Part shown: piece by piece, positions 7,055 through 26,297 of the stretch | Position numbering within the stretch: position 1 is the stretch's first letter | Layout of the letters: every line of letters starts with the position of its first letter | Source of the DNA: a virus | Length of the DNA stretch: 28,501 bases | Strand: one strand, 5' to 3' | IMG/VR virus record: IMGVR_UViG_3300032331_003503 | Location: 1 to 28,501 of that record | Program-made: the position numbers and the translations under genes | The notes under the pieces: model-generated | Seen by the model: only the letters and a program-made list of their open reading frames with translations | What the model was told of the DNA's origin: nothing | The model's database searches: none

Positions 7055-7603
7055 TTAATCTTCACCTTCTTCATCTTCTTCTAAATGATTGATAGCAGTA
7101 TAAAAAATATAATTAGCTGCTTCTCTATCTTTAGTAAAAGATAATAATTTACCTTGATCTTTTTTTAAAATATCATTTTTTAACTTATTTTTATCTAAAT
7201 TTTTTAAAAATATATTCATATTCATACCTGATGAGCTAGCGTAGTGTATGTCTTCAAAAGAAAAATTTTTATCTAAACGGGCTATAACTTCTTTTTCATC
7301 TTGATAAGTACTATATAAATCACTATATGATTTTATATTTTGATTATCTTCTAAAAATTTATCTAAATCAATATATTCTGTATTTTGTTTTATAATAACA
7401 ACTAAAGGATCTAAAGTTAGAACTCTATATATTTCTCCTTTATTAATGTATCCTTCTTTTTTAAGATATAAAAATATAGCTTCAGGAAAATCTTTTTGTT
7501 TTTTTAATGTTTTAGTATCTACCCAAAAACTAATATATTTAGAAATATCTAATTCATTTATTAATATCTCTTTAATTATATGTTTTAATTCTTGTTTTTT
7601 CAT
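7055..7603 (-). CDS. Packaged-type protein inserted in the oxidoreductase; possible ADP-ribosyltransferase remnant
   Basis: The 182-residue product starts MKKQELKHIIKEILINEL, the leader-helix type with an I-N-E site at residue 17. The body is Lys/Asp-rich. Two segments recall ADP-ribosyltransferases: GEIYRVLTLD (a YR strand) and KLLSFTKDREAANYIF (an S-F-T segment followed by A-x-x-F). The third element expected in that fold, a Q/E-x-E turn well after the S-F-T segment, is not clearly present, because the protein ends soon afterwards in EEDEEGED. The enzyme assignment is therefore weak. T4 Alt is a known case of a leader-carrying ADP-ribosyltransferase injected with DNA, which makes the comparison worth testing. 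The gene lies exactly between the two halves of the FAD oxidoreductase. Confidence 0.7.
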   Translation of the reverse strand: MKKQELKHIIKEILINELDISKYISFWVDTKTLKKQKDFPEAIFLYLKKEGYINKGEIYRVLTLDPLVVIIKQNTEYIDLDKFLEDNQNIKSYSDLYSTYQDEKEVIARLDKNFSFEDIHYASSSGMNMNIFLKNLDKNKLKNDILKKDQGKLLSFTKDREAANYIFYTAINHLEEDEEGED

Positions 7604-8287: not shown

Positions 8288-9058
8288 TTATTCAAATGGA
8301 TAATCAAAATATGTTTTAGTATAAATATTAGGTATTCTTCGCACAGTTTGTAATTTTCCTCCAGATACAAATGGTTTTCCAAAATCAACATCAATCCAAT
8401 CTAATTTACCATTAGCATCACCTTTACCACCAACTCCAGTAGATGTATTTATTATTTTACCTTTACCAAATTTTTCATGTTCAAACTCAGCTCCTTTTCT
8501 ATAATCAGTTCTTATAGTATACGATATATTTTCTGTTGATGGTTTTTCTTTTTTAGGATCTTCAATACCCATTACTTTATTTAAATCAATAGGATATAAG
8601 GCTTCGGGAAATTCTAAAATTTTAACTGGTTCGTCTCCGTATTTTCTTTTAGAATGTTCTCTTACTTCTTTTCCAAAATCTTCAGCATCAGAGATAATCA
8701 CACTAACTAATGAATTTTCTTTTACTATAACGTAATAGTATGTACCTGTTCCTTCTAATGTAGTAAGAGTAATCGAATATTTTCTGCCTCCAGTTTCAAT
8801 AACAGGAATAAAAAACTTATATCCTACTCTATACGTTTCAGATAAAGGTACAGTGTCTTTATTTTCTAAATCAGAAAGTTTTTTATATAGAATATTCTGG
8901 ATATATTTGATTAGAGGTTCTTTAACTTGGTCTAAAGTAAAATTGCCTAACGCATTTTTAGAAACATATAAATCAAGAATATTATCTACTCTTTCTTTTT
9001 TTCTATCTTTATAATGTCTTGATAGATTGAGTTCTTTTAATATATCTATTAGTTTCAT
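8288..9058 (-). CDS. Phage protein with leader helix and UvrD-tail-like Tudor domain
   Basis: The 256-residue product starts MKLIDILKELNLSRHYKDRK, a short leader helix followed by an H-x-x-x-R-x-x-E-R motif (SRHYKDRKKERVDNIL) seen in other phage proteins. The middle region is beta-rich (IETGGRKYSITLTTLEGTGT). The C-terminal 65 residues read GAEFEHEKFGKGKIINTSTG and later IDVDFGKPF. This fits the small beta-barrel at the C-terminus of UvrD/PcrA helicases, with the order G-x-x-V-x-H-x-x-F-G-x-G. In helicases that domain contacts RNA polymerase. Whether it does so here is unknown. The gene has its own AT-rich box and a strong terminator, so it is probably monocistronic. Confidence 0.75.
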   Translation of the reverse strand: MKLIDILKELNLSRHYKDRKKERVDNILDLYVSKNALGNFTLDQVKEPLIKYIQNILYKKLSDLENKDTVPLSETYRVGYKFFIPVIETGGRKYSITLTTLEGTGTYYYVIVKENSLVSVIISDAEDFGKEVREHSKRKYGDEPVKILEFPEALYPIDLNKVMGIEDPKKEKPSTENISYTIRTDYRKGAEFEHEKFGKGKIINTSTGVGGKGDANGKLDWIDVDFGKPFVSGGKLQTVRRIPNIYTKTYFDYPFE

Positions 9059-9082: not shown

Positions 9083-9103
9083 AGTACTTCTAGGATCTAT
9101 AAA

Positions 9104-9637
<534 letters not shown>

Positions 9638-9650
9638 ATAAATTTTGTTT

Positions 9651-9678: not shown

Positions 9679-9685
9679 AAATTAA

Positions 9686-9874: not shown

Positions 9875-9892
9875 ATTGTTTTGTTTTTAATT

Positions 9893-9908
9893 GTTTATTA
9901 TAAATATT
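9893..9908 (-). promoter_or_regulatory. AT-rich box upstream of the holin-like gene
   Basis: The gene strand reads AATATTTATAATAAAC, 18 bases before the ATG, with an A-rich spacer. The core matches the recurring box, but the spacing is longer than elsewhere. Confidence 0.4.
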
Positions 9909-11322: not shown

Positions 11323-12480
11323 TTAGGCAGTTGGTTTAGCACTTTGTGTTTTTGCTATTTCTTTATCATCTTTTAATGCTAACTCAAAACTATATTTTGG
11401 TGCATAATTTTTAGCCCATTCATAATCCATTTTATTAGCTACTACTTTTGGTTCTCCTCTTAATCCTTTAAGTTGATTTGGGTATTTATCTAATATATAT
11501 TTTAAAGCAGCTTCAGCTTCTTCTTTTTTTACAAACCCCCCAACAAAAATTATATTTGAATAATAATTTATTGTAACTTCTGGACGACTTTGAATGACAC
11601 CTCCTTGAGCAATTGTACCAAGATCTTTTGCTAAACCTTTCTTTCCTAATTCTGGATTCTGATAGGTCATTGTAACTTTTTTATTAGATGTAATAGGATC
11701 ACCTTTAACATTTTTTAAAGGAGAACCATTTATATCTAATGGATTATTAGGTTTCATTTTACTAAGATATAAATATAAATTCTTAGCTATACCACCTAAA
11801 ATACTTTCATCTACTTCATTTAAATCATCTTCAAATAACGCTTGTACTTCTTCTTTTAAGCTTTTATTTTTCTTAGTAGCTAATTTAGTAGCCGTAGCAT
11901 ACATTTTAGATTTTTCATCTTTTGATTTACCGAAGCTCTTAGATTTCTTCATACCTTTAACGATATCTTCTTTCTTCTCTTTTTGAGCAGCTGTCATTTT
12001 CTTTTTAGCTTCTTCAACTTTAGCTTTATATTCAGTTTCTGAGATGATACCTGCTAGTTTTTGCATATGAAGTACTTGTTCTTCATTTAAAGAATCTTCT
12101 TCTAGTTGAGCTCCAGCAGGTGGATCAATAGTAACTTCGTCAATTACTTCATCCATCATACCTTCATCTTCAGTTGATTTAGCAGACATTTTACCTTCAG
12201 CTTTAGTCTTCATTTTATCTAATACTTTTTCAGCTTTAGCTTTATATTTTTGAAGTTCTTTAATTTCTTTTTTAAGCTCATTGATTTTAGTACTATCCAT
12301 CATATCATGATAAGCTTCATCTAAACCTTCCATGTTAGCTTTCTTTTCACGAAGTGCAATAGCTTCTTCACATGCTCTAATTTTAGCTTCTTGAGCTGCA
12401 ATGTTTCCTGATGCTTCTACTTCACGAATATATTCTTGAATTGATTCTTTAATAAGTTGTCTAAGTTGAATGTTTTCCAT
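11323..12480 (-). CDS. Multi-module internal/virion-type protein (385 aa)
   Basis: The N-terminus MENIQLRQLIKESIQEYIRE is a leader helix with an I-R-E site. Residues 25-100 form a likely coiled coil (KINELKKEIKELQKYKAKAE). A second leader-type module sits in the middle, VLHMQKLAGIISETEYKAK, nearly the same as the N-terminus of the 21534-21968 product. Then comes a basic motif, KKSKSFGKSKDEKSKMYATA, of a type repeated in other phage proteins. After another acidic LxE-rich stretch (LFEDDLNEVDE), the last 150 residues form a separate alpha/beta domain (YYSNIIFVGGFVKKEEAEAA). The protein could be cut into pieces by a prohead protease. Its function is unknown. A start box lies 7 bases upstream and a strong terminator follows. 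Confidence 0.8.
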   Translation of the reverse strand: MENIQLRQLIKESIQEYIREVEASGNIAAQEAKIRACEEAIALREKKANMEGLDEAYHDMMDSTKINELKKEIKELQKYKAKAEKVLDKMKTKAEGKMSAKSTEDEGMMDEVIDEVTIDPPAGAQLEEDSLNEEQVLHMQKLAGIISETEYKAKVEEAKKKMTAAQKEKKEDIVKGMKKSKSFGKSKDEKSKMYATATKLATKKNKSLKEEVQALFEDDLNEVDESILGGIAKNLYLYLSKMKPNNPLDINGSPLKNVKGDPITSNKKVTMTYQNPELGKKGLAKDLGTIAQGGVIQSRPEVTINYYSNIIFVGGFVKKEEAEAALKYILDKYPNQLKGLRGEPKVVANKMDYEWAKNYAPKYSFELALKDDKEIAKTQSAKPTA

Positions 12481-13788: not shown

Positions 13789-14033
13789 TATTTTTTAAGT
13801 TTTAAAAAGCGTTGAGTTATCTTATTAACTAATTCTTTTTCAGTTTCTTTTAATGCTTTTGGTTTTGGTTGAACACCAGGGGCTGGTTTATCAAACCCTC
13901 TACGTTTTGGAGTAGTACCAGGTTTAGTAGTAGGAGGCGCTTCAATGGTTTCTTTTTCTTTAGCAGGAGCGTTTTCTGCTAATACTGAAGCTAATTCTTC
14001 TTGAATTATACGTCTTAAGTCGCTTACTTTCAT
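13788..14033 (-). CDS. Small basic internal-type protein with targeting leader
   Basis: The 81-residue product starts MKVSDLRRIIQEELASVLAE, one of the cleanest leader helices in the window, with an L-A-E site at residue 20. The rest is low-complexity and rich in Pro, Lys and Thr (TTKPGTTPKRRGFDKPAPG), ending in a short basic helix. Size, leader and basic disordered body resemble T4 internal proteins and core peptides, which are packed in the head after leader removal. No fold is evident. The gene overlaps the 858-residue gene upstream by 4 bases and the gene downstream by 1 base, so all three are one operon. Confidence 0.8.
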   Translation of the reverse strand: MKVSDLRRIIQEELASVLAENAPAKEKETIEAPPTTKPGTTPKRRGFDKPAPGVQPKPKALKETEKELVNKITQRFLKLKK

Positions 14034-16606
14034 TTTTTCTTATTTTTTAGGTTTATTAAAACTTCTTTCATTTGTTGAGCCTCTTCAGGCATAGCAATTG
14101 AGTGAAGTCTTATTAATGTTTTTAGATTTTCTGATATATTATTTGCTTGTAATGATGCTGCTAATTGACTTACTCTAGGTACTCTATAAGCAGTTGTACT
14201 TGTAACTATAAAGTGTTTAGCGTCAGGTTGCATAGTAGCAAACCCAATTACTCGTCCACTAGGCATTCGCATTATGTAAAATCTACTTTGACCAGCAGCT
14301 ATCACACCTGTTACTCTACCAATAGCATCTAAAGAAGCATTTCTTCTAGTATATGGAACTACATTTCCTGCTGATATTCTTGTTCTTATACTAGTAGGTA
14401 AAGCATTAAATCCTTGTGTTAATCCAGCATTTTCAATAGCTGTTGCTACATTAGCATTTGCTTCTCCTGCGGCAGCTGGTGCTGCGGGTGCTGCTGCTCT
14501 TGCTCCGGCAGGTCTACCTCTTCTTCCTCCTCCTGCTGCAGGTGCCGCTGCAGGTTCCGCTACTGCTTGTCCACCTAAAGCTCTAGCGGCTATGTTAGGA
14601 GGAATACTCGCTCTAATTAAACGACCTCTTCTACCTAATGTTTGACTATCTCTTGGATCTTGAGTATTAATAAGAACATATTTTCCATCAATTACAGCAG
14701 GTCTAATTCTACTGTTATCTGCCATAGGTGGATTAGCATCTATGATATCTCTTTTTGACTGTTCTCTGTAGGTATTGTTATCTATTAAGTCTATTAATTG
14801 TTCACTAGTGTAAGATCTATTTTGACTTCTTAAATAATCAAAATATATTCTCCAATCAGTAGTACTTAAATTTCTACTATAACTATCAGTACGTTCTCTC
14901 CAATCATTAGTATCTGGTCCTCCATACATTAAACGTAAATCATTTTGTAAATTAGTAGTTGGATTTATAGATATAGTGAATATTTTATTTTCTTCTGGAT
15001 CAGTTAATATTACTTCTCCGTTTCTAGTTCTATTAGCAAATGGTGTATTGTTTAATATTCTATAAAAAGCATCTTTATCAATTTGTGAAGGAAGACTACT
15101 TTCGTCTGAAAATATTAAATTAACAGCACTTTCTTGAAAACCACTGTTTTCTTCTTCACCAGTTAAAGCATTTTGTACTTCTTCACTTTTAAAAGGAATA
15201 GGTGATATTTTATTGCCTTCTAATTTATATGAAGTAAATGAATTTGAATCTAATATTAATTTACCTGTGTCGGTATCCTTAACTATAATAGCTGAGTTAG
15301 GATCTTCTTGTGCTTTAGTTAATACTGTATTAATAAATTCTTTACTAACAACTTCATCAGATGCTAGTTTTAAGAGATTATTAAATGGTATTTTATCAAG
15401 ATCAGGATATTCAGTTAAATATTTAGATGTACGAGCGTTTAATTTAATATCTGGATAATCGTCTTCAGCGGTATATACACCTACTTTAATATCATCTCCA
15501 AATGTTAATTTAACTATAGTGTTACCATCTTTAGTAATATATAATCTTTCATTAGATTTTATATCCCATTTATTTAAAGCTACTAATAATTTTTTAACAG
15601 CAAATGGAAGATTTTCTCTAGATAATTCTTTTATTTCAACACTATCACGTAAATTAGCAGTAATAGATTTTCTATCTTGATTTGAGAATTTATCTAAATG
15701 TTTTAATAAAAGAGTTGTATTTAATACTTCTGGAGTAACAGCAATAAATGTAGCTAACTGAGGATATTGAGGTAAATATTGAGATACAAATTCATCATTA
15801 CTAATATCTGAAAATAAACTTTCTTTATTTTTTCTAGCTACTAAATATTGTTTTTTAGTTGGGAAAGGTAAATCCACCCATCTACGAATAGATAATTCGC
15901 CTCCTGATTTACCATATACTTGGGTAACTTTTTCAGATGATGATAAAGGAATATATTTAAGTACATTTTTAATATTAGGTACTTCTCTTAACCAAGGTAC
16001 TTCACTCATTAAAGAGCTAAAACTCATTGGTTTAGATTCATGAGGAATATTTCGTCTATTAGTATAGACATATTTTTTATCATCATTCGGAGTATCTCTA
16101 ACTTGAATAGCAACAAAACTTAATTTATCACTATCTGATAAAGCACCATTTTTAGCTAAATAGAAAGTAGGATATGATCTATCTTGACTATATCTATAAT
16201 TACTAAATGAACCTCTAGTTATACACCAACGTTCACCTCTACCATAATGTACACAATTATCTTCTTTACTACCATTCCATATAGTGATATTGTTATCATC
16301 ATATACTACATCTGGTGTTGTATCTTCTCTATCATCTGCGCTTGCTCCTTCAGAAGAAGTAACTAATTTAATAAGTTTAGATAATGAGTATTTACGTAAG
16401 TCTTTTTCTTGTATTTTAGGTGAATTCTTTAACTGATCAAAACGTTGGATGTATGATTCTAATTTAGCATCGTCTATGTCAATGTTTAAGTCATCCGCTT
16501 CTTCCTTAAATTTGTCCATTAATTTTTTTATTTCTCCAGACGAATATTCGTTAAGAGGAAATAAATTGTTCACAACATGGACTATAAATGAATGTATATT
16601 CTTCAC
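14030..16606 (-). CDS. Large virion-type protein with WCIT motif and AT-hook linker (858 aa)
   Basis: The start is GTG at 16604-16606, chosen because it follows the start box by 8 bases and gives a leader ending PLNE at residue 20. Residues about 95-180 contain NCVHYGRGERWCITRGS, then YPTFYLAKNG, then KLSFVAIQVRD. This Y-G-x-G-x-x-W-C-I pattern recurs in large phage structural or internal proteins and resembles PcfJ-type segments. A long middle region has no recognisable motif. Near residues 680-730 is an Ala/Pro/Gly linker with GGGRRGRPAGARAAA, which contains a true AT-hook core (RGRP). A C-terminal domain of about 120 residues follows (FYIMRMPSGRVIGFATMQ). This suggests a DNA-contacting protein packed in the head. 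It is the largest gene in the window. Confidence 0.8.
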   Translation of the reverse strand: MKNIHSFIVHVVNNLFPLNEYSSGEIKKLMDKFKEEADDLNIDIDDAKLESYIQRFDQLKNSPKIQEKDLRKYSLSKLIKLVTSSEGASADDREDTTPDVVYDDNNITIWNGSKEDNCVHYGRGERWCITRGSFSNYRYSQDRSYPTFYLAKNGALSDSDKLSFVAIQVRDTPNDDKKYVYTNRRNIPHESKPMSFSSLMSEVPWLREVPNIKNVLKYIPLSSSEKVTQVYGKSGGELSIRRWVDLPFPTKKQYLVARKNKESLFSDISNDEFVSQYLPQYPQLATFIAVTPEVLNTTLLLKHLDKFSNQDRKSITANLRDSVEIKELSRENLPFAVKKLLVALNKWDIKSNERLYITKDGNTIVKLTFGDDIKVGVYTAEDDYPDIKLNARTSKYLTEYPDLDKIPFNNLLKLASDEVVSKEFINTVLTKAQEDPNSAIIVKDTDTGKLILDSNSFTSYKLEGNKISPIPFKSEEVQNALTGEEENSGFQESAVNLIFSDESSLPSQIDKDAFYRILNNTPFANRTRNGEVILTDPEENKIFTISINPTTNLQNDLRLMYGGPDTNDWRERTDSYSRNLSTTDWRIYFDYLRSQNRSYTSEQLIDLIDNNTYREQSKRDIIDANPPMADNSRIRPAVIDGKYVLINTQDPRDSQTLGRRGRLIRASIPPNIAARALGGQAVAEPAAAPAAGGGRRGRPAGARAAAPAAPAAAGEANANVATAIENAGLTQGFNALPTSIRTRISAGNVVPYTRRNASLDAIGRVTGVIAAGQSRFYIMRMPSGRVIGFATMQPDAKHFIVTSTTAYRVPRVSQLAASLQANNISENLKTLIRLHSIAMPEEAQQMKEVLINLKNKKK
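14456..14575 (-). repeat. GC-rich Ala/Pro/Gly low-complexity linker with AT-hook
   Basis: This stretch of the 858-residue gene is far richer in G and C than its surroundings. It consists mostly of GCA/GCC/CCA/GGA-type codons for Ala, Pro and Gly, with an RRGRP core in the middle. It reads as an in-frame interdomain linker and shows no sign of a separate insertion. Confidence 0.75.
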
Positions 16607-16893: not shown

Positions 16894-17285
16894 TTTGTTT
16901 TACCCCATTTTTTACCTTTACCAGGTGATTTACATTGAGCAGGTGTAGGACGACATGATGGATATTTAGCGCGTTTTTCACCTTTTTTTCTACCACACGA
17001 TTTATATTTACCGTCTCGGCAGGTATTGCAATCTACCCATCCACCTTCTTTGCCTGGGGCGCCTTGACGTTTGAACCATTTACGAAGTGATTCATCTTCT
17101 TGAATGATTTCTTTGATGATTTCTTTTAATTCTTCCTCTTTTAATCCTTTCCAGATATTACCTTTACGACAACGTACAATAGCACCTGATTTGTAAGCAG
17201 ATGGCTTATCGTATTTGCGATCAGCAATACGTTTACAGCGATCCTCTTTTAGAAGTTGCTTTAATGTGTCGATTAATTTAATCAT
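16890..17285 (-). CDS. Basic Cys-rich phage protein with two leader-type helices
   Basis: The 131-residue product has the order: leader MIKLIDTLKQLLKEDR (L-K-E site), basic block RCKRIADRKYDKPSAYKSGA, a second leader-type helix ELKEIIKEIIQEDES (I-Q-E site), then a C-terminal domain WFKRQGAPGKEGGWVDCNTC with CGRKKGEKRAKYPSCRPTPA. The last part (G-W-V-D-C, then C-G-R-K, then Y-P-x-C-R-P-T-x-x-Q-C) is a conserved phage motif whose function is unknown to me. The two leaders suggest that a prohead protease could separate the two basic blocks. It overlaps both neighbours by 4 bases. A DNA-binding internal protein is plausible, given its charge. Confidence 0.78.
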   Translation of the reverse strand: MIKLIDTLKQLLKEDRCKRIADRKYDKPSAYKSGAIVRCRKGNIWKGLKEEELKEIIKEIIQEDESLRKWFKRQGAPGKEGGWVDCNTCRDGKYKSCGRKKGEKRAKYPSCRPTPAQCKSPGKGKKWGKTK

Positions 17286-17818
17286 TTAAGAGGATTAATT
17301 AAGATTAAATCTATATCAGGATATTTTTCTAGTCTTCTTTCTACTGCGTCTAAATTCTTTTGTGAATCATCTACAAATTTAATAGTTTTATATCCTTTTT
17401 GAACTTGATTCTCTATCCAATCTGCTTTTAATTCTGGATTTGATCCTGCTACTCCTACTACATAAACATTTACTCCATATTTGTCTCGTAAATGCTTCAT
17501 AACAGGAAAAGCTAATCTACGAGCAGTTAAAACGGTTGTTTTAATACTAGGATCATTTAAAGATTGAGAAATAGCTTTAATATTTTTTAGAATAGGTTGT
17601 GAACCTTTAATCATAGCATCAAACTCAGAAAAATCATATTTTTCTCCTGGTTTGAGTTTATATAATGCAAATTCATGACTTGAAAGAACTTGTTTATTTC
17701 CTTCAGCATCTATAATACCAACTGAGGTATTTGTTTTGACTAAGGTATCATCAAAGTCATATATATGAAGTATTTTTCTACCTTTAACTTCATTTAATAT
17801 GTCTATTAACTTAATCAT
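17282..17818 (-). CDS. HAD-superfamily phosphatase with targeting-type leader
   Basis: All four HAD motifs are visible in 178 residues: DFDDTLV at 21-27 (nucleophile Asp21, acid/base Asp23), Thr98 in VLTARR, Lys131 in ELKADW, and Asp150/Asp151 in KFVDDSQKN. The cap region is small, as in nucleotide or polynucleotide 3'-phosphatases and 5'-nucleotidases. The substrate is unknown. The N-terminus MIKLIDILNEVKG is the short leader type with an L-N-E site just before the first strand, so the enzyme could be loaded into the head and released by cleavage. It starts almost identically to the downstream gene (MIKLIDTL). Overlaps of 4 bases on each side place it in the lysis/cargo operon. Confidence 0.9.
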   Translation of the reverse strand: MIKLIDILNEVKGRKILHIYDFDDTLVKTNTSVGIIDAEGNKQVLSSHEFALYKLKPGEKYDFSEFDAMIKGSQPILKNIKAISQSLNDPSIKTTVLTARRLAFPVMKHLRDKYGVNVYVVGVAGSNPELKADWIENQVQKGYKTIKFVDDSQKNLDAVERRLEKYPDIDLILINPLK

Positions 17819-18285
17819 TTCCAGGGTGAATAAACTGGTTTACCGTTTACTCTTGTAGCTTTTAAAATTTGTTTTCTTTGTTTTCCAGTATGAGACCAAG
17901 AAACATGTACCCAATCTGGATTTTTGTCTGTACCAAATTCCCAAATTAATTGATCAAAATTTATATGATCTTTAATATAACTAAATACCATAACGTTAGT
18001 TACACCAGTTTGTTTATCGTCCTGATCAAGATCTAATGCTTCACCTGAACAATGTTGTGATGTGAGTGATGAACCAGGAACAGCAACATTTAATGCTTTT
18101 GAACGATAACCTGATGATAAAAATATTGGTTTACCAAAATGTTTACGAATTGGTTCAAAAACGTTTTCTGCTAATAATTTTAAATTAGCTAAATGTTCTG
18201 GAGTTGGATTGTTATCGATACCTAATCTTTTAGCGGTATCTGATTTTGTAACTTCTGAAAGGTCTAAATGTTCTGATAGTTGCAT
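17815..18285 (-). CDS. Peptidase M15-type endolysin
   Basis: The 156-residue product matches the M15 D-Ala-D-Ala carboxypeptidase-like family used by many phages as endolysin. The family's active-site order is intact: IFLSSGYRSKALN, then SLTSQHCSGEALDLD with zinc ligands His78 and Asp85, then DWVHVSW with His127. There is no signal peptide, so release would need a holin; the candidate lies 8 kb away at 9686-9874. The role would be cutting peptidoglycan stem peptides at lysis or during entry. Unlike its neighbours it has no leader helix at the N-terminus, which argues for a cytoplasmic lysis enzyme over head cargo. Confidence 0.92.
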   Translation of the reverse strand: MQLSEHLDLSEVTKSDTAKRLGIDNNPTPEHLANLKLLAENVFEPIRKHFGKPIFLSSGYRSKALNVAVPGSSLTSQHCSGEALDLDQDDKQTGVTNVMVFSYIKDHINFDQLIWEFGTDKNPDWVHVSWSHTGKQRKQILKATRVNGKPVYSPWK

Positions 18286-18665
18286 TATATACCTATATTT
18301 AATAGTTGAGGATTTTCTACCTTAAATTTAATTACACCTTTGATGCTGTTTATATTGTCTATAATGTTTTGCAAATTTTCAATAGTAAATGATTTACCAT
18401 TTTTAGTATAAGGATATGGATCTACTTTAATTATAGCTCTATCATACATGTATCCAGGTTTTGAAATATTAGGTATATATTCTTCAATATCGATTGTAGT
18501 AACACCAGGAACAGAACGAATATCTGATAGTATTTGGGTTTGAGTTTTTTTATTAGTATCAGTTACTAGTAAACCTTCAAGTTTATAAAGTTTAGAAGCA
18601 TAATCCTCACGTAATATATTACGTATTTCTTCTTTAATAAAATTTTTAAATGTTGATTTTAACAT
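18285..18665 (-). CDS. Leader helix plus ACT/ferredoxin-like domain protein
   Basis: The 126-residue product starts MLKSTFKNFIKEEIRNILRE, a leader helix with an L-R-E site at residue 20. The remainder reads like a compact beta-alpha-beta domain: LEGLLVTDTNKKTQTQILSD, then IRSVPGVTTIDIEEY, then DRAIIKVDPYPY. The T-x-x-x-x-x-x-x-I-L-x-D-I-R-x-x-x-G-V order resembles ACT or related ferredoxin-like folds found as small proteins in T4-like phages. No ligand or catalytic residue is evident. It overlaps the endolysin gene by one base. It is likely a small packaged or regulatory protein. Confidence 0.75.
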   Translation of the reverse strand: MLKSTFKNFIKEEIRNILREDYASKLYKLEGLLVTDTNKKTQTQILSDIRSVPGVTTIDIEEYIPNISKPGYMYDRAIIKVDPYPYTKNGKSFTIENLQNIIDNINSIKGVIKFKVENPQLLNIGI

Positions 18666-18677
18666 TTGATTAATTTT

Positions 18678-19562
18678 TTACCAGTAACCACTGAATGATG
18701 ATTTGAGTCCTAATAAGCTAGCATATCTAGGTAAACGACAGCTCCAGTATGAAGCTTTTGTTTTATCTGTTTTTTGAGCACATTTGTGACGAGCGGCAAA
18801 TGCTTTGCGTGCTTTAGGATTGTTTATTTTAGCAGACATTCCTGCCTGGCCGAATGATACTTTTTTAATGCCGCCCCCGGGCTTGCGAACATACACATAG
18901 AACTTTTTAGAGCCACCTCTATGGGGTTTGTTGAGTGGGGGTTGTTTTTTCTTTTTAGCTATTTTTTCATTTAAACCAAGCAAATGACCAAAGTGACCAT
19001 CCATTTCATATTTTTGTAATATGCCTGGAATTTCATTAAGATGTTTGTCCCAAAGTGCTTGTTCTAATTCAAAGTAAAAATCTGTGCCACCGTATTCTTT
19101 ATATGCTTGTCTTAACAATTCAGCATATGGTTGAGTTAAAACGCTAGTAGTGAATTCAACATCTTCTCTACTACCTAATTCAGAATCTTCTTCCATCATA
19201 GGTAAATCTAAAGGCACTTTTTTACCTTCATACATTCCATATTCACCTAAATTAGTTTCTGTTATGATTTCTTTATCTATTTCATTTAAATGAATAGCGT
19301 TGCGAGAATATAAGTAACGTGCTTCAGCCCATAAATCTAAAAACGCTTCAGAACCATAACGGAATGTGTTTTCTGTTAAGGGTAATTTATTATCAACATG
19401 ATATTTCATGTTTTCCGATAATGTAATTTTGACGTCTAAATTTTCATTAAGTACAGGTCCTTTATTACCTACATTTTCACATGAATGACATCCACAGTTA
19501 CATTTATCCTCTGATGGAGGTGTAGATAGTATTTCACGTATAAGTTGCTGGATTCTATTCAT
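18678..19562 (-). CDS. Phage protein with many prohead-protease-like sites and basic C-domain
   Basis: I choose the ATG at 19560-19562 (MNRIQQLIREIL). An upstream start at 19625 would overlap the previous gene by 50 bases and lacks the leader at its front. The 294-residue product has a Cys/His cluster (CNCGCHSC at about 21-28). It then has a series of (L/I)-x-E sites: LNE40, LSE50, LTE64, LNE94, ITE102, LNE177 and LNE199. A segment GEYGMYEGKKVPLDLPMMEE is conserved in phages. The last 80 residues form a basic domain: RGGSKKFYVYVRKPGGG, FGQAGMSAKINNPKARKAFA, then KASYWSCRLPRYASLLGL. That C-terminal domain is a familiar family in environmental phages, without known function. Confidence 0.82.
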   Translation of the reverse strand: MNRIQQLIREILSTPPSEDKCNCGCHSCENVGNKGPVLNENLDVKITLSENMKYHVDNKLPLTENTFRYGSEAFLDLWAEARYLYSRNAIHLNEIDKEIITETNLGEYGMYEGKKVPLDLPMMEEDSELGSREDVEFTTSVLTQPYAELLRQAYKEYGGTDFYFELEQALWDKHLNEIPGILQKYEMDGHFGHLLGLNEKIAKKKKQPPLNKPHRGGSKKFYVYVRKPGGGIKKVSFGQAGMSAKINNPKARKAFAARHKCAQKTDKTKASYWSCRLPRYASLLGLKSSFSGYW

Positions 19563-19575
19563 GATGATAAATACA

Positions 19576-20637
19576 TTATATTTTGGGAGAGGATACTCTT
19601 GCTTTTGGAACACTAAGTATTTCACTATCTTTTATTCCAAAATCATTTCTATTACTTCTGTATGTGGCGAAAAGTACAGGTTCATATTCTTCACTAGGAA
19701 TCTCACCATTTAACCACATTTTATTACCTGATAGATTATATGATTCATTTTCTAAGTTCTCGAATTTTAAATCACCTTGAATAACACAAGTAACATTATT
19801 TTCATTAAAATTAGTATTACCAAATTCTTTACCGTAAACTATTTTATTTTTTAAATTTTTATCAGTTATTTCTTTAAAAAAAGTTTGACCAGATTTAAAT
19901 TTATTATTTTCAATATTATCTTTAATATATTCAATAAAAGCTTTTACTTCTTCATATTCTTTATAAGCAGAAATTCCTCCCCATCTATAAAAATCTTTAG
20001 CTGAGTCGCCGTCTTTATGTGAGATATATATATTTGGTTCACCATCTATATAAAAATCTGCTTTAGGTTTACCAGATTGAGGCTGTTGGAATAAACCTTT
20101 ACAATCTTTTGATATATTTTTTCCTACTTGTATATTAATTATATCATCTTTTGGAAAATTTTCTATACCTTTATTTAATGCTTGTGTTTCTTTACTGACA
20201 AAGTCTTTACTCTGTCCTCCAAATTCTTCAGTTTTAATTAATTTACCTGAGGTTTCTTTAAATTCAGTACCGTTCTCATATTCTCCTTCAACATATATGG
20301 TGGATTTAGATAATGATATAATTTGGTTGTATATTTCATCTCTTTTCTCTTTGTCTTCAGAAGTATATATATTTGATCCTATCTTTATTTGATTTAGAAC
20401 CACATTTCCATCTATCGCTTCAAATGGTTTTTTATTATAGAATTTATCTAAAAAAGTTTCTAGATTTTCTCTTTTTTTTAATTCTGTAGCTTGTAACATT
20501 TTTACTTCGTTTAAATTTATTCCTATATTTTCTAATATATCAGCTAAAAGATTAATATCCTGCTCATTAGTTAAGTCAGGATATCCTTTTGGGAATTTAT
20601 ATGAATATTTTTTAAAAAATAAGTCTAATGAATCCAT
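19576..20637 (-). CDS. Phage protein with nuclease-like core
   Basis: The 353-residue product starts MDSLDLFFKKYSYKFPKGYP and has an early L-N-E site in NIGINLNEVKM. The most telling segment is KADFYIDGEPNIYISHKDGD followed by SAKDFYRWGGISAYKE near residue 200. An Asp, then 10-15 residues later a hydrophobic-Ser-His-Lys, followed by a F-x-R-W-G-G turn, resembles the D...(x)xK core of PD-(D/E)XK nucleases. The complete active site cannot be confirmed by eye. The family recurs in T4-like environmental phages. It ends 13 bases before the next gene and overlaps the upstream gene by one base. A DNA nuclease is a reasonable but unproven reading. Confidence 0.75.
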   Translation of the reverse strand: MDSLDLFFKKYSYKFPKGYPDLTNEQDINLLADILENIGINLNEVKMLQATELKKRENLETFLDKFYNKKPFEAIDGNVVLNQIKIGSNIYTSEDKEKRDEIYNQIISLSKSTIYVEGEYENGTEFKETSGKLIKTEEFGGQSKDFVSKETQALNKGIENFPKDDIINIQVGKNISKDCKGLFQQPQSGKPKADFYIDGEPNIYISHKDGDSAKDFYRWGGISAYKEYEEVKAFIEYIKDNIENNKFKSGQTFFKEITDKNLKNKIVYGKEFGNTNFNENNVTCVIQGDLKFENLENESYNLSGNKMWLNGEIPSEEYEPVLFATYRSNRNDFGIKDSEILSVPKARVSSPKI

Positions 20638-21149
20638 TATGTTGTTGGTGTTTCTTCTGCTGGAACTTCTTCAGCAGGTGCTTCAGGTGCTGTTTCAGGA
20701 GCAGGGGACTCAGGAGCTGAGGCTTCAGGCGCGGTTCCTTTTTCAGGTGTTGGTTTAGCACCATATGATAATACACGAGCAATTGCTTCAATACAATTTT
20801 GCTCTTCACTTAAATTTAATAAATAATATTTTTTACCTTCTACTTTAGCAATCCAAGATCTGTCAGTATATATAAGATAAAATGTTTGATCGTTTCCTAA
20901 TACAATTCGAAATGTAGTAGGACGTGGTGCTACCCACTCAATATCTTTTAAAAACAAATCATATTGATCTGTTAATAGTTTAATAATAGTTTCTTTAAGA
21001 GTAGGAAATTTAGCTAGTACTGGGAATCGTTCATTATCTAATGAGACAACAGAAGGACTATCTATATCAATTTCTGTTGATTTAGTAGTCTTTGAGTAAA
21101 CTTGTTTTACTAAAGCTTTAATTTTATCTTTAAATTCGTTTTTAGTCAT
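20637..21149 (-). CDS. Conserved phage protein with Pro/Ala/Glu-rich tail
   Basis: The 170-residue product starts MTKNEFKDKIKALVKQVYSK, an amphipathic helix but without a clear (L/I)-x-E site. The core is DQYDLFLKDIEWVAPRPTTF, then RIVLGNDQTFYLIYTDRSWI, then GKKYYLLNLSEEQNCIEAIA. I recognise it as a conserved small phage family of unknown role. The last 40 residues are a low-complexity tail of Pro, Ala and Glu (PETAPEAPAEEVPAEETPTT). That tail looks like an extended acidic linker. Overlaps with both neighbours (8 and 1 bases) put it in the run of genes from 21.97 kb downward. Confidence 0.78.
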   Translation of the reverse strand: MTKNEFKDKIKALVKQVYSKTTKSTEIDIDSPSVVSLDNERFPVLAKFPTLKETIIKLLTDQYDLFLKDIEWVAPRPTTFRIVLGNDQTFYLIYTDRSWIAKVEGKKYYLLNLSEEQNCIEAIARVLSYGAKPTPEKGTAPEASAPESPAPETAPEAPAEEVPAEETPTT

Positions 21150-21534
21150 TTGATATAGATACTATACTGTTATAATCACTCATAGTAAGAGTTTTACCTC
21201 CTTTAGATAACTCAATAATATTTTCTGCTACTTTATGTAGATCCATATCACTTTGAGCATCTTCTTTAGCGTACTCCATAATACGAATTAATAAAGGAAT
21301 ATCTAATGTAGTGGTATCGGTTGGATTATTAGGTCCCATTAAAGCCTTTCTAACCATTTCTCTAATTCGTTGTTTATTTTCTTTCATAGCTGCAGATTCG
21401 GCTCTTTTAAATGCGGCACCAGTCATCACTTTTTCAGCATCAGCACCATATTTTTTAACCCAAGAATTTTTATTTTTCTTATATTGGTCAAAAAATTGTT
21501 TTTGTAATGCTAGTATACGTGGTGTTGGTTTCAT
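21142..21534 (-). CDS. Conserved small phage protein with KKYGxDAxxVM motif
   Basis: The 130-residue product starts MKPTPRILALQKQFFDQYKK and contains WVKKYGADAEKVMTGAAFKR. That basic motif is common in environmental phages and is echoed in the 11323-12480 product (KSKMYATATKLATK). The C-terminal half reads LDIPLLIRIMEYAKEDAQSD, then DLHKVAENIIELSKGGKTLT, a helical domain also conserved in phages. No catalytic residues stand out. It overlaps the next gene by 8 bases and the previous gene by one. The function is unknown; a role in head content or capsid assembly fits the neighbourhood. Confidence 0.78.
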   Translation of the reverse strand: MKPTPRILALQKQFFDQYKKNKNSWVKKYGADAEKVMTGAAFKRAESAAMKENKQRIREMVRKALMGPNNPTDTTTLDIPLLIRIMEYAKEDAQSDMDLHKVAENIIELSKGGKTLTMSDYNSIVSISND

Positions 21535-21968
21535 TACTCAGCGGCGGTTTGTTGACCTACTACTTGTGTTCTAACTAACATGGTGATAGTATTACCAATT
21601 TGGTTTACTAATTTTTCATCACCTAATGCTTTGGCATTTGCTAATGCTTTACTTAAAGAATCCTGAATTGCTTTAACTTTAGGATCAATGTCAATTTCGT
21701 TAGATACTTCAGGAGCCATAGTATCGCTAGGCATTTCAGTGTCCATTGATGGTTCTACTGTATCAGCACCCATATCTAATTCTACTGAGTCGTCTTGTGG
21801 TGCTACGTCTTCAGGTTTATCTTTTTTCTTTTTCTTAGCTTCACCTAATGATGAATGTACTAATTCTTTAATTTTATCTTTAAGTGAATTTTCAGTAACT
21901 AACTTGTTATACTCGCTTTCGGTAATCAAACCTGCGAGTTTTTGCATATGTAAAAGTTGTTTGCTCAT
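21534..21968 (-). CDS. Internal/scaffold-type acidic protein with LHMQKLAG leader
   Basis: The 144-residue product starts MSKQLLHMQKLAGLITESEY, with an I-T-E site before Ser at residue 17, fitting the T4 prohead-protease rule. More sites follow: LVTE26 and LGE44-A. After a Lys-rich patch (AKKKKKDKPEDV) the middle is very acidic (VELDMGADTVEPSMDTEMPS). The C-terminus is helical (SKALANAKALGDEKLVNQIG). Acidic, helical and protease-sited proteins are typical of phage core or scaffold components, so this is a candidate for one. The same LHMQKLAG module occurs inside the 11323-12480 protein. It is first in its operon, with a near-perfect start box. Confidence 0.8.
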   Translation of the reverse strand: MSKQLLHMQKLAGLITESEYNKLVTENSLKDKIKELVHSSLGEAKKKKKDKPEDVAPQDDSVELDMGADTVEPSMDTEMPSDTMAPEVSNEIDIDPKVKAIQDSLSKALANAKALGDEKLVNQIGNTITMLVRTQVVGQQTAAE

Positions 21969-21975
21969 CTAAGTA

Positions 21976-21993
21976 TATTTTGTTATAAATATT
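21976..21993 (-). promoter_or_regulatory. Recurring AT-rich start box (21968 gene)
   Basis: The gene strand reads AATATTTATAACAAAATA, the consensus form, ending 7 bases before the ATG. Confidence 0.6.
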
Positions 21994-22004
21994 GGAAATT
22001 CCAA

Positions 22005-22637
22005 TTAAGGTTTATTTTTTAAGTAATCTGTTAAGATACTACCAATCGCACCTATTTTTTGTCTAATTAATATCCATTCATCTAATTTAAAACTATGTTT
22101 TTTATTATAGTATGATATAGCTAGTACACCAATAAAGTTACCATTTAAGTCATCAATGGACAGTAAGTAAAATGATTTAGTTTTATATTCTTTACCTTTT
22201 ATTGGAAATAAACCACAGTCGATAGTATTATTTGATGTATCATGTATATCTATTTCACTATTTTTATATAACAATGAAAATATTTTTGGAAATAAAGATA
22301 CTGGTATATTTTGGAATGTTTCCTTAACTGATGGTGCTTTATCTGTTAAACGTTCATAGAATATACTAAACTTTTTAATTGATTTACCTGTTGGGTAAAA
22401 ATTACCTCCATTATGGAATTGTGAGATACATATTCTATCACAACCTAATTCTTCCATAAGTTGTTCAATTTGTTGATCAATTTTTTCATCTTTTTTAATT
22501 GACTCACCTAACAAATCTTCATTAGATTTTTTACGAAAAAATTTAAGTTTTATCCACTCAAAAATAGTTGGTCCAATTATCGATGTTATTAAAGCTGCGG
22601 TTATAGCTGCTATTATTGGTAATGGTAACGTATTCAT
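22005..22637 (-). CDS. Membrane-anchored GAF-like protein
   Basis: I place the start at ATG 22635-22637 (MNTLPLPIIAAITAALITSI), one base after the upstream stop. A longer frame to 22712 would run inside the preceding gene. The 210-residue product has one N-terminal membrane helix (about residues 6-25), a basic juxtamembrane stretch (IKLKFFRKKS), a short coiled helix (DEKIDQQIEQLMEELG) and a GAF-like domain: CDRICISQFHNGGNFYPTGK, then FSIFYERLT, then NFIGVLAISYYNKK. The Q-F-H-N-G-G motif marks a family of membrane-tethered GAF-like proteins in phages and bacteria. The ligand is unknown. It may sense or block something at the host inner membrane. Confidence 0.8.
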   Translation of the reverse strand: MNTLPLPIIAAITAALITSIIGPTIFEWIKLKFFRKKSNEDLLGESIKKDEKIDQQIEQLMEELGCDRICISQFHNGGNFYPTGKSIKKFSIFYERLTDKAPSVKETFQNIPVSLFPKIFSLLYKNSEIDIHDTSNNTIDCGLFPIKGKEYKTKSFYLLSIDDLNGNFIGVLAISYYNKKHSFKLDEWILIRQKIGAIGSILTDYLKNKP

Positions 22638-22638
22638 A

Positions 22639-23208
22639 TTATTTTTTAAGACTTTGTAAATATTTAATTGTTTCTTCTTTATTTTCCAACAACTTTTTCT
22701 TTGAAGAACCAACCCATTTTTCTACATCACCAGCTTCAGTAATATATGATTCATTTGAACCATTTATTACTTCATCAATCCATACACTATAATCTGTAAT
22801 TAGATGATCTAAATCTGAGTTAATTATATTTTTCTCATATTCATCCCATAAACCCATTTTACGAATATCTGTTTCGAATTCAATTTGACAATCAAAACAT
22901 CTTTTATATTGAATATAAAATAGTTTATCATGTTTATGTTTCATTAAATTTGAGCAGCAAGGACAAAATAAGGGAAGGGTAACTTCCTTCTTTGCTTTAT
23001 CTAATTTAGTAATATTTTGCTTAATACCATTTTTAATGGTCCACTGTCTTCCATCTTCTTCCCACACATCACCTTCCTCATGGAATTCTTGTTTTTTACT
23101 ATAACCTACACCAGCAGCAATTCTTTCACCTTGTTTACCTGTCATTAGGTTACGAAGACGTTGAACGTCAGCTGATTTGAAATCTTTTTTTAAAACGTTT
23201 TCAGACAT
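22639..23208 (-). CDS. Conserved phage zinc-ribbon protein
   Basis: The 189-residue product starts MSENVLKKDFKSADVQRLRN and continues LMTGKQGERIAAGVGYSKKQ. After EEGDVWEEDGRQWTIKNGIK come QNITKLDKAKKE and a four-Cys ribbon, FCPCCSNLMKHKHDK, then KRCFDCQIEFE. Two CxxC pairs about 25 residues apart are a classic zinc ribbon. I recognise the family as widespread in T4-like marine and freshwater phages, without a proven role. A nucleic-acid or RNA-polymerase contact is possible by analogy with other ribbons. It is tightly coupled to neighbours: 4 bases after the 23212 gene and 1 base before the membrane protein. Confidence 0.82.
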   Translation of the reverse strand: MSENVLKKDFKSADVQRLRNLMTGKQGERIAAGVGYSKKQEFHEEGDVWEEDGRQWTIKNGIKQNITKLDKAKKEVTLPLFCPCCSNLMKHKHDKLFYIQYKRCFDCQIEFETDIRKMGLWDEYEKNIINSDLDHLITDYSVWIDEVINGSNESYITEAGDVEKWVGSSKKKLLENKEETIKYLQSLKK

Positions 23209-23211
23209 AAA

Positions 23212-24057
23212 TTATTTTTTAATTTTCTTTAAAAATGATTGATAATAAGTATCTCTCATTACTTTTTGTTCTTCAGGGTTTAATTCATCCCATTTTTTAG
23301 CTATTTTTTTAGCAGTATCTAAAACCATTTGAGAATAATCTCCTTTTATATGACCTTCTTTTTCAGCTTGTTTGATTAATTTTTCAGCTGTAGATAAATT
23401 TCTTTTTACTAATTTTTTAATTTCTTCTTTTACTAATTTTTTTAAATTTTCTTCTAAATCGTCTTTTTCTATTTTTAAAGTATATTTTTCTTTAGGTAAA
23501 CCAGATTTTGTTAATATTTTTTTAAGAAAAGCTTCATCTCCTACATGAAACTTAAGCGTATGATCGTCTACTGTGGTAGGTTTAAGACTAGATTTTTTAA
23601 ATTTCTCGTCTTCATTGTTTGTTATTTTATAATATTCCTCAACTATTTCTTCGTTGTGTATATTCTTTTGTGGAAAAACAAATAGTGTTTTTTCTATTTC
23701 TTCTCCTTTTACTTTTTCTTTTTTAATAATAGCTCCTTTTTTATCAAATTTTTTACCTGTTGTAGTTTCTATTTCAGTGTAAAAAGATTTACCATTATTG
23801 TTATATATTTCAATATTTGCTTTTAAAGTAGCTCTAATGTTTGGTCTATCACCAAACACGTTTAATTTAAGTTCTTTTAATCCACCACTGTATTTGGCAA
23901 AAGTACCTTCTAAATTTTTAGGATCGTTTATAATTTTTTTAAGTTCATCAGCAGTTAATCCTTTTTCACCAGTTAAAAACAATGCGTTTTTACCTCTAAA
24001 ACTTTTTAATCCGCTTTCTTCACCGTCATTTTCTATTAATCTATATTTAAATTTCAT
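23212..24057 (-). CDS. Hypothetical Lys-rich phage protein (281 aa)
   Basis: No family is recognised. The first 190 residues are Lys/Glu-rich and beta-like (KELKLNVFGDRPNIRATLKA). Near residue 205 comes an internal leader-type helix, ENLKKLVKEEIKKLVKRN. The C-terminal 70 residues are helical and basic (AEKLIKQAEKEGHIKGDYSQ, ending SFLKKIKK). The internal copy of the L-x-x-L-V-K-E-E-I pattern resembles the N-terminal leaders of other proteins, but no good (L/I)-x-E site follows it. It sits 2 bases from the metallopeptidase gene, in the same operon, and may be a packaged basic protein. Confidence 0.7.
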   Translation of the reverse strand: MKFKYRLIENDGEESGLKSFRGKNALFLTGEKGLTADELKKIINDPKNLEGTFAKYSGGLKELKLNVFGDRPNIRATLKANIEIYNNNGKSFYTEIETTTGKKFDKKGAIIKKEKVKGEEIEKTLFVFPQKNIHNEEIVEEYYKITNNEDEKFKKSSLKPTTVDDHTLKFHVGDEAFLKKILTKSGLPKEKYTLKIEKDDLEENLKKLVKEEIKKLVKRNLSTAEKLIKQAEKEGHIKGDYSQMVLDTAKKIAKKWDELNPEEQKVMRDTYYQSFLKKIKK

Positions 24058-24059
24058 AG

Positions 24060-24509
24060 TTATTTATTTTTAATTGAGTCTTCCCAATTTCTAAAAATTA
24101 TGTTTCCGTTAAGGTACGCTTCTTTTTCCAACTCTTGTAAGTTAGAATCCTCATTAGTATTAGTAGTGTTAACATTATTTAGTCTTCCTTCGTTGTCTTG
24201 AATACGATGAATCATTTCGTGTGAATATGAACGTAACACATCTTTTGGATGGCGATTTAATGTATATAAAGTGATTGAACAATCGCTTGGATTATAATAT
24301 GCTGTTTTACCTAAAATGTTCTCAGCGTTTTCAACATCACTGTTTACTATTCTTAATTTAGGTAAAGGTTTGATATTTAAACCCCGATCAAGCATATGTT
24401 TAGTTAATAGTACTATAGCTTGTTTAAGATCTGTTGGTGGTTGTGGATGTTGACAACCACATCCTTCTTGTAATAAAGGTTGTATAAGTTCTTTAACTAA
24501 TGAAAGCAT
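24060..24509 (-). CDS. HExxH metallopeptidase-like protein with targeting leader
   Basis: The 149-residue product starts MLSLVKELIQPLLQEGCGCQ. The L-L-Q-E-G junction at residues 12-16 exactly fits the T4 prohead-protease rule (L-x-E before G). The catalytic motif is HEMIH at 97-101 in SYSHEMIHRIQD, with the likely third zinc ligand in LQELEKEAYLNG (Glu128 or Glu130). The protein ends IIFRNWEDSIKNK. This HExxH plus E-x-E-A-Y layout matches small phage zinc-peptidase-like proteins. Its substrate is unknown. If packaged, it would be delivered into the host. It is the first gene after a weak terminator, with an unusual leader. Confidence 0.85.
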   Translation of the reverse strand: MLSLVKELIQPLLQEGCGCQHPQPPTDLKQAIVLLTKHMLDRGLNIKPLPKLRIVNSDVENAENILGKTAYYNPSDCSITLYTLNRHPKDVLRSYSHEMIHRIQDNEGRLNNVNTTNTNEDSNLQELEKEAYLNGNIIFRNWEDSIKNK

Positions 24510-24559: not shown

Positions 24560-24573
24560 CCTGTATAAATATG

Positions 24574-25368
24574 TTAAATGCTTGAAACAATTTGAATTTC
24601 TGTTGGAAGTTGTTCATCTGATGCCTTAGGTTCAGGATGTTCTAACTTATATAATTCATGTATATATCCGAATAATTTTAAATTTTCTTCAATAGATTTT
24701 TCAGGTTTATATAATTCCCAACCTTTACCTTGAATTTTATCGCCTTTTTTATCTTCACCACGTTTTGATGACTTTAACCACAATACACCTACATTGTCAA
24801 TTTTTTCCTCATATAACTCATTCCATGCTTGAGCATATGCTGAAAGTTGTAAGTCGTGACTAGTATGTAAAGAATTTGAGGTTTTAATATCTAGTAGCCA
24901 TTTTTTACCACCTAATTCTATTACTAAATCACAAGTACCTGCATATGTGTATATATCTGAAAATAAATGGATTTCGCTCTCAATTAAAGTTGGTTTATAT
25001 GTAGACCAAAAATCATGAAATTTGAGTATCATTTTCCATACTTCTAAAGAGTATTTAGATATTCCATTTTCATCTATCCATTGTATTTTTTCGCCTTTAA
25101 GATATCTTTCAGCAGCTTCATGAACCTGTGTACCTTCTTCAGCGGCTTTTTTAGCTATAAAATCAGCATTATGTCCTACATCTTTAAGCCAATTTTCAAA
25201 AAATTTATTTTTAGGCATAAATTGTAATATACTTGTAACAGATGGATATAGTTTATTATTTCTACTATAATACCTGTTATCTAATATATTAACTCGTTTA
25301 GATTTAGAATCTATTTCTACTAATCTTTTAACACTTTTTTTATTGATATTTACGTTTTTTTCAATCAT
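24574..25368 (-). CDS. RecB/Cas4-like PD-(D/E)XK nuclease
   Basis: The 264-residue product carries the RecB-family nuclease motifs in order: His83 in GTQVHEAAERYL, Glu in LIESEIHLF (about 130-134), Asp147 in YAGTCDLVIE, Asp160 and Lys162 in WLLDIKTS, and the QLSAY motif at 174-178. No helicase or iron-sulfur cysteine cluster is present, so it resembles stand-alone phage exonucleases more than Cas4. A role in DNA end processing, recombination-dependent replication or host DNA degradation is expected from the family. It overlaps the primase gene by 4 bases, which links it to replication. It lacks the packaging-type leader. Confidence 0.92.
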   Translation of the reverse strand: MIEKNVNINKKSVKRLVEIDSKSKRVNILDNRYYSRNNKLYPSVTSILQFMPKNKFFENWLKDVGHNADFIAKKAAEEGTQVHEAAERYLKGEKIQWIDENGISKYSLEVWKMILKFHDFWSTYKPTLIESEIHLFSDIYTYAGTCDLVIELGGKKWLLDIKTSNSLHTSHDLQLSAYAQAWNELYEEKIDNVGVLWLKSSKRGEDKKGDKIQGKGWELYKPEKSIEENLKLFGYIHELYKLEHPEPKASDEQLPTEIQIVSSI

Positions 25369-26297
25369 ATTGTTTGTAGTTTTTTCTCGAGTAAATTCGA
25401 GAAGGTTAATGGTAAAGTATTTTGAATTAAATTTGTAAATTTTATAAAACCCATCTCGCTTGGATCTTTGTCCTCAAGATCCACTAAATAAACTTCTTTA
25501 CCTTCGTTTATTAATATTTCACAAAAATTTAATGCTTGTTTAATAGCATCTTTGTCAAGGGCAATATAAATTTTTTCAACTGTTGAGTTGATAATACGTT
25601 TCATTAAACTCTTCTGTATTGTTTTACCTAATAAAGGTATCGCGTTACGTTTAATAGCAATAGCATCAAACATACCTTCACATAAAATAATAGGTACATT
25701 CCAATTAATAAAATGCTCTAAACCAATGATATCTCTAGTAACATCAGGATTCTTATATTTAATAGGTAAGTTTTTATCAAAGTTTCTTGCGGTAAAATAA
25801 TTAAGATTTCCATTCACGTCGTACGATGGAATAATAATCATATTAGAAAATATACCAAACTCACAATAACCTATATTATACTTAATAATGTCTTCTTTAG
25901 TAAGACCTCTATTTTTAATGTATGATATAGCTTTTTTAGCGGTTAAACTATTTAATTGTGGGTTAACAAGTGAAATAAACTCTTTAGGTAATTCTGCTCT
26001 CTTATCATCAATTACTTCAACTTGTTTACCGTCGGTTTTTACTAACAGTCTTAACTGACTAATTTTACTAGTATCTACTTCTAGTTTTTTAAATAAAGTA
26101 GTTAGTTTTTTACCTTTAAATCCACACACCCAACACTGATAAAATTGAAAATGGGGTGATGTTTCATTTAAGTTAATTTCTAGTTTTAACTTATGGTGTT
26201 TACATTCGGGGCAATGATATGCTCTATTACCTTTAGATGTAGATTTACCTTTACCTAAGACAGAATCAATTAAGAATACTAGAGCATTATTAGTCAT
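25365..26297 (-). CDS. DnaG-type DNA primase
   Basis: The 310-residue product has an N-terminal zinc site: CPEC at 29-32 and CWVC at 55-58. Next comes the primase core with IIIPSYDVNGNLNYFTARNF and a TOPRIM domain: CEGMFDA at 206-212 (Glu207) and IALDKDA at 245-251 (Asp248, Asp250). The motif order matches bacterial DnaG and T4 gp61-like primases, and the length is near that of the phage form. It would synthesise RNA primers with a phage helicase, which is not in this window. Its partner here is the RecB-like nuclease gene, overlapped by 4 bases. Replication genes amid virion-type genes suggest a mosaic order. Confidence 0.93.
   Translation of the reverse strand: MTNNALVFLIDSVLGKGKSTSKGNRAYHCPECKHHKLKLEINLNETSPHFQFYQCWVCGFKGKKLTTLFKKLEVDTSKISQLRLLVKTDGKQVEVIDDKRAELPKEFISLVNPQLNSLTAKKAISYIKNRGLTKEDIIKYNIGYCEFGIFSNMIIIPSYDVNGNLNYFTARNFDKNLPIKYKNPDVTRDIIGLEHFINWNVPIILCEGMFDAIAIKRNAIPLLGKTIQKSLMKRIINSTVEKIYIALDKDAIKQALNFCEILINEGKEVYLVDLEDKDPSEMGFIKFTNLIQNTLPLTFSNLLEKKLQTI

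Follow-up and report, generated by a model that had tools for sequence, protein, structure and literature searches.

Probable capsid-targeting leaders of the T4 type on enzymes of a T4-like phage, and similar sites at the joints of related polyproteins

We analyzed a stretch of viral DNA of 28,501 nucleotides, the whole of IMG/VR record IMGVR_UViG_3300032331_003503 (28.5 kb; positions 1 to 28,501) and referred to here as the window. It is a fragment of a T4-like phage with kinship to Flavobacterium phage immuto, and the genes discussed below all lie on its minus strand. Two of these encode enzymes, a HAD-superfamily phosphatase and an HExxH peptidase (HEMIH), which an earlier note had proposed as possible injected proteins on the basis of short N-terminal helices. 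We find that these N-termini belong to a larger set of leaders resembling T4 capsid-targeting sequences, that such leaders recur on many unrelated proteins of related phages, and that sites of the same form occur at the joints of polyproteins in which relatives of the peptidase reside.

Leader-bearing proteins of the window

The HAD phosphatase (17282..17818; 178 residues) consists of a leader and a catalytic domain. All four HAD motifs are present and are invariant in 8/8 aligned sequences: motif I, DFDDT (D21, D23, T25); motif II, T98; motif III, K131; and motif IV, D150-D151. Pfam placed DUF2608 just above its cut-off and HAD Hydrolase under it, and the protein matches the polynucleotide kinase family PHROG415 (E 2.5e-8). 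A tblastn search of the phage collection with the window protein gave no match. An environmental contig (G001, locus L005) carries a phosphatase 60% identical to it; more distant relatives (L010, L013) have a differing N-terminus. The peptidase (24060..24509; 149 residues) is of the zincin type. Its residues H97, E98 and H101, and the downstream E128/E130, are invariant in 36/36 sequences, and an AlphaFold2 model contains helices at residues 88–106 and 122–147, with the downstream Glu of the HExxH arrangement on the second helix, as expected for a zincin. Fold searches gave weak matches to SPRTN, IrrE and selecase, none of which reached E <= 0.001. The window peptidase has no Pfam match, and the HEMIH parts of its relatives scored 17–18 bits against Peptidase_M91 (PF14891), for which the cut-off is 25. 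Both enzymes are encoded where the earlier note had placed them.

The two N-termini are MIKLIDILNE followed by V for the phosphatase (17789..17818, with cleavage predicted after E10) and MLSLVKELIQPLLQE followed by G for the peptidase (24465..24509, with cleavage predicted before GCGC). Each leader is short and amphipathic and ends in [LI]-x-E, and in the AlphaFold2 models each is a low-confidence helix (residues 2–13 and 4–12, respectively) preceding a confident catalytic domain. The site [LIVMF]xE is found in 6/6 orthologues of the phosphatase, and it lies immediately upstream of the peptidase start xC[GS]C in 24/24 distinct relatives, the window protein included.

The leaders are thus real on both enzymes, as had been noted, but they do not set these two apart, because about nine other window proteins carry similar ones. 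A basic DUF5872 protein (16890-17285) begins with MIKLIDTLKQLLKE (17244..17285; site kept in 14/14 orthologues), protein 8288-9058 with MKLIDILKE (9032..9058; 3/5), protein 18285-18665 with MLKSTFKNFIKEEIRNILRE (18606..18665; 16/16), protein 18678-19562, read from an internal ATG, with MNRIQQLIRE (19533..19562; 23/23), and protein 11323-12480 with MENIQLRQLIKESIQEYIRE (12421..12480; 3/3). By N-terminal similarity, leaders were also assigned to the small protein 13788-14033 (13974..14033; two relatives) and to proteins 5535-6206 (6147..6206) and 7055-7603 (7553..7603), for both of which comparison with the related loci found no relative. The start of an 858-residue protein (14030-16606), which opens on GTG and ends its leader-like segment with FPLNE (16547..16606), is a weaker case. 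The resemblance among N-termini exceeds chance: 21 of the 741 pairs formed by 39 window N-termini score at least 24, whereas internal segments of the same proteins gave 2.4 such pairs on average and never more than 7 over 300 resamplings. Two of the leader-bearing proteins, 16890-17285 and 18678-19562, end in very basic, Cys-containing tails, one of the DUF5872 type and the other a similar SYWSCRLPRY tail; these are possible DNA-binding head proteins.

A potential concern is how far the leader discriminates. The earlier note had stated that the endolysin, primase and RecB-like nuclease lack such leaders. This holds for the whole leader in the M15 endolysin (17815..18285; assigned by Pfam and PHROG) and, from comparison of the relatives' N-termini, in the proteins the note labelled RecB-like nuclease (24574..25368) and primase (25365..26297), but the bare motif shows no such contrast. 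In the endolysin, LSEV occupies residues 9–12, within its M15 domain (the Pfam match begins at residue 6), and [LIVMF]xE occurs within the first 24 residues of 41/54 orthologues of the RecB-like nuclease and 45/59 orthologues of the protein at 26336. Counting the bare motif was therefore dropped as a discriminator, and we rely instead on register, joints and controls. The same caution applies to conservation. Relative to the window, orthologues of the DUF5872 protein, the phosphatase and protein 18285-18665 are 47%, 42% and 39% identical over the first 12 residues and 80%, 58% and 65% identical in the core, and the terminal site is retained in 14/14, 6/6 and 16/16 despite the divergence of the leader. 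Given how often the bare motif arises by chance, this retention carries weight only jointly with other evidence.

Register, joints and protease in related phages

In T4, internal proteins are made with propeptides of 10–19 residues that act as capsid-targeting sequences (CTS), and in IPIII residues 4 and 7 serve targeting and residues 8 and 10 serve processing, according to a review that also raises the CTS as a possibly general route in T4-like phages (PMC9026906). The phosphatase leader fits all four positions. We formulated a strict rule that asks for hydrophobic residues at positions 4 and 7, for L or I at position 8 and for E at position 10; the positions come from that review and the residue classes are our own choice. 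Two of the 39 window N-termini, those of the phosphatase and of protein 18678-19562, fit the rule (0.08 expected; P 0.003). The related loci (L001-L093) contributed 1184 deduplicated N-termini, of which 86 obey the rule, compared to 1.57 expected from internal sequence, and the same rule placed at residue 51 as a control was matched by 1/1184. The 86 N-termini fall into 18 families without similarity in their cores, 10 of which have at least two members, and the commonest form is MIKL(I/L)(D/N)(I/L)L-x-E. The recurrence of this form across unrelated families indicates one tag placed on many unrelated proteins.

The relatives of the peptidase locate the same element within longer proteins. A BLAST search gathered 83 open reading frames (ORFs), 64 of them distinct, in which HEMIH is mostly a domain of a longer chain (up to 1762 residues). 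At least 250 residues are found in 67 of these, and 43 non-redundant polyproteins were retained. They display 18 architectures, in one of which HEMIH is the sole scored domain. Among the partners are two nucleotidyltransferases, one N-terminal and the other with Pfam matches under the cut-off, DUF5661, NT5C-like or HAD phosphatases, and a cytidylyltransferase-like domain, which in L030 and L045 scores above the Pfam cut-off and in L026 and L085 under it.

The joints between these domains are strongly enriched in the site. In the 43 polyproteins, [LIMVF]xE lies within −20 to +12 of 104/121 architecture breakpoints, compared to 53.8 expected (0/2000 resamplings), and within −8 to +4 of 87/121, compared to 25.6 expected (0/500 resamplings). 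When joints were instead defined from domain seeds, a count that omits a basic KPKGSG domain and a second zincin, whose seeds returned no domain, 87/92 had [LIVMF]xE as against 44.6% of same-sized windows; the five misses were all HEMIH joints. One chain (L045) joins a HAD phosphatase and HEMIH, with a site ending in E ahead of each. The leader MNSLVKELIQPLLE opens cytidylyltransferase chains in L030, L017, L022 and L034, and a near-identical leader is found on the stand-alone peptidase of the window, so that leader and joint look exchangeable.

The protease that would recognize such sites is present in some relatives. The gp21 family (PF03420) was detected in 8/14 related records, namely immuto, Melnitz and six environmental contigs; the six negative records are partial or of uncertain completeness. 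The positive contigs include the closest long relative, a 155-kb contig (G003, locus L039) that has many genes in common with the window, and G001, the source of the 60% identical phosphatase. In an alignment of major capsid proteins, those from immuto and five relatives have [VI]xE at the place matching the T4 maturation site and LLE sites in their prosequences.

Virion data and the weighing of explanations

Cyanophage S-CREM2 is a T4-like phage with a published virion proteome determined by mass spectrometry (Table 3, PMC10665884). The strict rule picks out five of its 219 proteins (0.19 expected), each of them non-structural, and by that table four of the five were detected in virions, compared to a base rate of 28/195 for non-structural proteins (P 0.0016); this comparison was not blind, the S-CREM2 leaders having been known before the rule was written. 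The four are a SAM hydrolase (ORF6), a kinase (ORF14), a cytidylyltransferase (ORF154) and ORF13. Relatives of ORF154 are present in 526 phage records, and NMNAT-like proteins are reported as recurrent in cyanophage virions (PMC10665884, PMC9602691). With a position score built from leaders (the trained score), a threshold of 3 is passed by 5/28 virion and 7/167 non-virion proteins of S-CREM2 (P 0.017). The trained score was also applied to immuto (MW353175.1; our own ORF calls over bases 1-150000 of 160410), where 28 proteins of the cargo/head region outscored the remaining 180 (P 6.7e-7). Scores of at least 4 were reached by 6/28 and 9/180, respectively, and a threshold of at least 6 was not significant (P 0.077).

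Three immuto proteins outside the head region (24569-24994, 60009-60353 and 81525-81944) have strong leader scores (MIKLIDLLTE, MSLINEIKQILSE and MKLDLLKKLIKE) and are candidates for further cargo. In S-CREM2 (OR473000.1), ORF12 (7704-10313), annotated as a Cas9-like nuclease, is listed by the authors as virion-detected; it has no Pfam match and no strict-rule leader.

Based on the T4 register, the gp21-family protease of the relatives, the sites at polyprotein joints, the chain that joins HAD and HEMIH, and the virion detection in S-CREM2, we think it likely that the leader-bearing proteins are capsid cargo of the T4 type that undergoes cleavage by the prohead protease and is probably injected, and that this clade makes such cargo either as single genes or as polyproteins. 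The proposal of the earlier note is thus supported in part, and well as to capsid cargo, with the tag extending to far more than two proteins; the whole leader is absent from the endolysin, primase and RecB-like nuclease, but the short motif by itself fails to tell cargo from enzymes used inside the cell. In the proposed mechanism, an amphipathic helix of 9–20 N-terminal residues on the phosphatase, on the peptidase and on about nine others would dock each protein in the core of the prohead. The gp21-family protease would then cut after the E of [LI]-x-E as the head matures. Once freed, the enzymes would remain in the head beside the DNA and pass into the host when the phage infects it. In the relatives, a polyprotein of peptidase, nucleotidyltransferases and a cytidylyltransferase/NMNAT-like domain, sometimes with a HAD phosphatase, would be divided by this protease at its [LIVMF]xE joints, and the stand-alone peptidase of the window may have retained the leader of such a polyprotein. 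We favor, with less assurance, the broader view that injected enzymes in this T4-like clade are made as polyproteins from which the prohead protease frees up to about six inside the capsid. Since a leader and a joint appear to be equivalent elements, genes for cargo could fuse and split freely at the tags, and injected proteins could then be read from phage genomes by sequence. As a guess from the domain names, the enzyme mix, with nucleotide transferases, NMNAT-like enzymes, nucleotidase-like HAD proteins and zincins, might bring about an early adjustment of host nucleotide or NAD pools together with cutting of host proteins.

Several observations weigh against this interpretation. The loci are mutually related and the breakpoints likewise are kin, so the counts are not independent and the P values overstate independence. 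In S-CREM2, ORF175 fits the strict rule and is not among the virion-detected proteins of the published table, 24 of the 28 non-structural virion proteins there fall outside the rule, and the trained score taken as a whole separates virion from non-virion proteins weakly (Mann-Whitney P 0.089). Melnitz has a single strict match, which is not significant (P 0.19). The peptidase leader, at 15 residues, lies outside the strict 10-residue register, and L048 and L050 encode stand-alone HEMIH proteins without a leader. The window itself, a fragment of 28.5 kb, contains no prohead protease.

Three other explanations were considered. The zincin domain could itself cut joints and leaders in cis; a role for zincin-like peptidases in processing polyvalent proteins has been proposed (Iyer et al. 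2017, PMC5512222), and HEMIH occurs in all 43 polyproteins, although these were collected via HEMIH. However, leaders of the same form are found in Melnitz and S-CREM2, where tblastn with HEMIH found none (four immuto records were the only matches), and [LIV]xE likewise marks the maturation sites of capsid proteins and is reported for T4, whose Alt is cut at ITE-6 and, near the C-terminus, at LTE-619 (PMC5694885). We therefore consider cutting by the zincin unlikely. That AlphaFold2 models the leaders as short helices would also suit elements that stay on the protein and bind membranes or dock to other proteins within the infected cell, but in the three orthologue sets above the end site is conserved amid divergence of the other leader residues, and the tagged enzymes of S-CREM2 are reported in virions, which leaves little probability for retained leaders. 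Least probable in our estimate is that the proteins with leaders serve as ordinary components of the scaffold or core, their enzyme domains being idle after infection: T4 scaffold and core proteins also have [LI]xE near the N-terminus, but the catalytic residues of both the phosphatase and the peptidase are invariant.

Some further features of the window were noted. A protein at 6240-8227, which by its motifs we take to be an FAD-dependent oxidoreductase, is apparently in two parts: ORF 7625-8227 encodes the N-terminal half and ORF 6240-7022 the C-terminal half, and the leader-bearing ORF 7055-7603 separates the two. This insert has 20% GC as against 31–33% on either flank, and similar short sequences, which read LIFILK in another frame, precede both the insert and the second half of the oxidoreductase. 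A peptide like HMQKLAGIITESEY recurs in window proteins 11323-12480 and 21534-21968, which otherwise differ, and in immuto at 25061 and 111675; a form of it lies near the end of the immuto protein adjoining the capsid gene. An Rfam search of the window gave no match.

Comparison with known systems

The closest parallel is T4 itself, in which IPI, IPII, IPIII and Alt likewise have a short N-terminal propeptide with hydrophobic residues at 4 and 7 and an [LI]xE end, and are served by a protease of the gp21 type, found here in the relatives. The cargo described here differs in consisting mostly of other enzymes, with leaders of 9 to 20 residues, and in sometimes taking the form of a polyprotein that has several sites within it, whereas T4 cargo consists of single proteins, with Alt also cut near its C-terminus (PMC5694885). 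If the interpretation is correct, the T4 capsid-targeting code reaches little-known aquatic T4-like phages, of which a cultured relative infects Flavobacterium. Phage P1 DarB, in which the N-terminal 30 residues are described as targeting cargo to the head (PMC9024508), offers a likeness at the level of description, in another type of phage with another mode of assembly.

The virion enzymes reported for S-CREM2 and S-SCSM1 (NMNAT/cytidylyltransferase, kinase, SAM hydrolase) are of the same kind, and those of S-CREM2 are leader-tagged. The cyanophage papers report their detection, and a text search of the S-CREM2 paper for targeting, cleavage or propeptide gave no match. If the leaders act as proposed, many genes of unknown function would be marked as encoding injected proteins.

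Polyvalent proteins, as described by Iyer et al. (2017), resemble the chains of the relatives in that one polypeptide combines several unrelated enzyme domains, such as zincins and nucleotidyltransferases, and is predicted to be injected; the phosphatase and peptidase of the window are each single-domain and do not have the at least two disparate domains of such proteins. Their processing has been ascribed either to cis-acting zincin domains or to an assemblin-like peptidase that is part of the same chain (PMC5512222), whereas the joints described here have sites of the prohead-protease type that interchange with N-terminal leaders. We found no description of prohead-protease joints in such polyproteins in titles and abstract openings of the open-access papers (PMC) that our searches returned. 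If the joints are cut as proposed, the prohead protease would provide a mechanism for splitting some multi-enzyme phage proteins for which zincins had been proposed. By mechanism, then, the system is of a known kind, that of the T4 internal proteins; its polyprotein form and its set of enzymes appear to be new.

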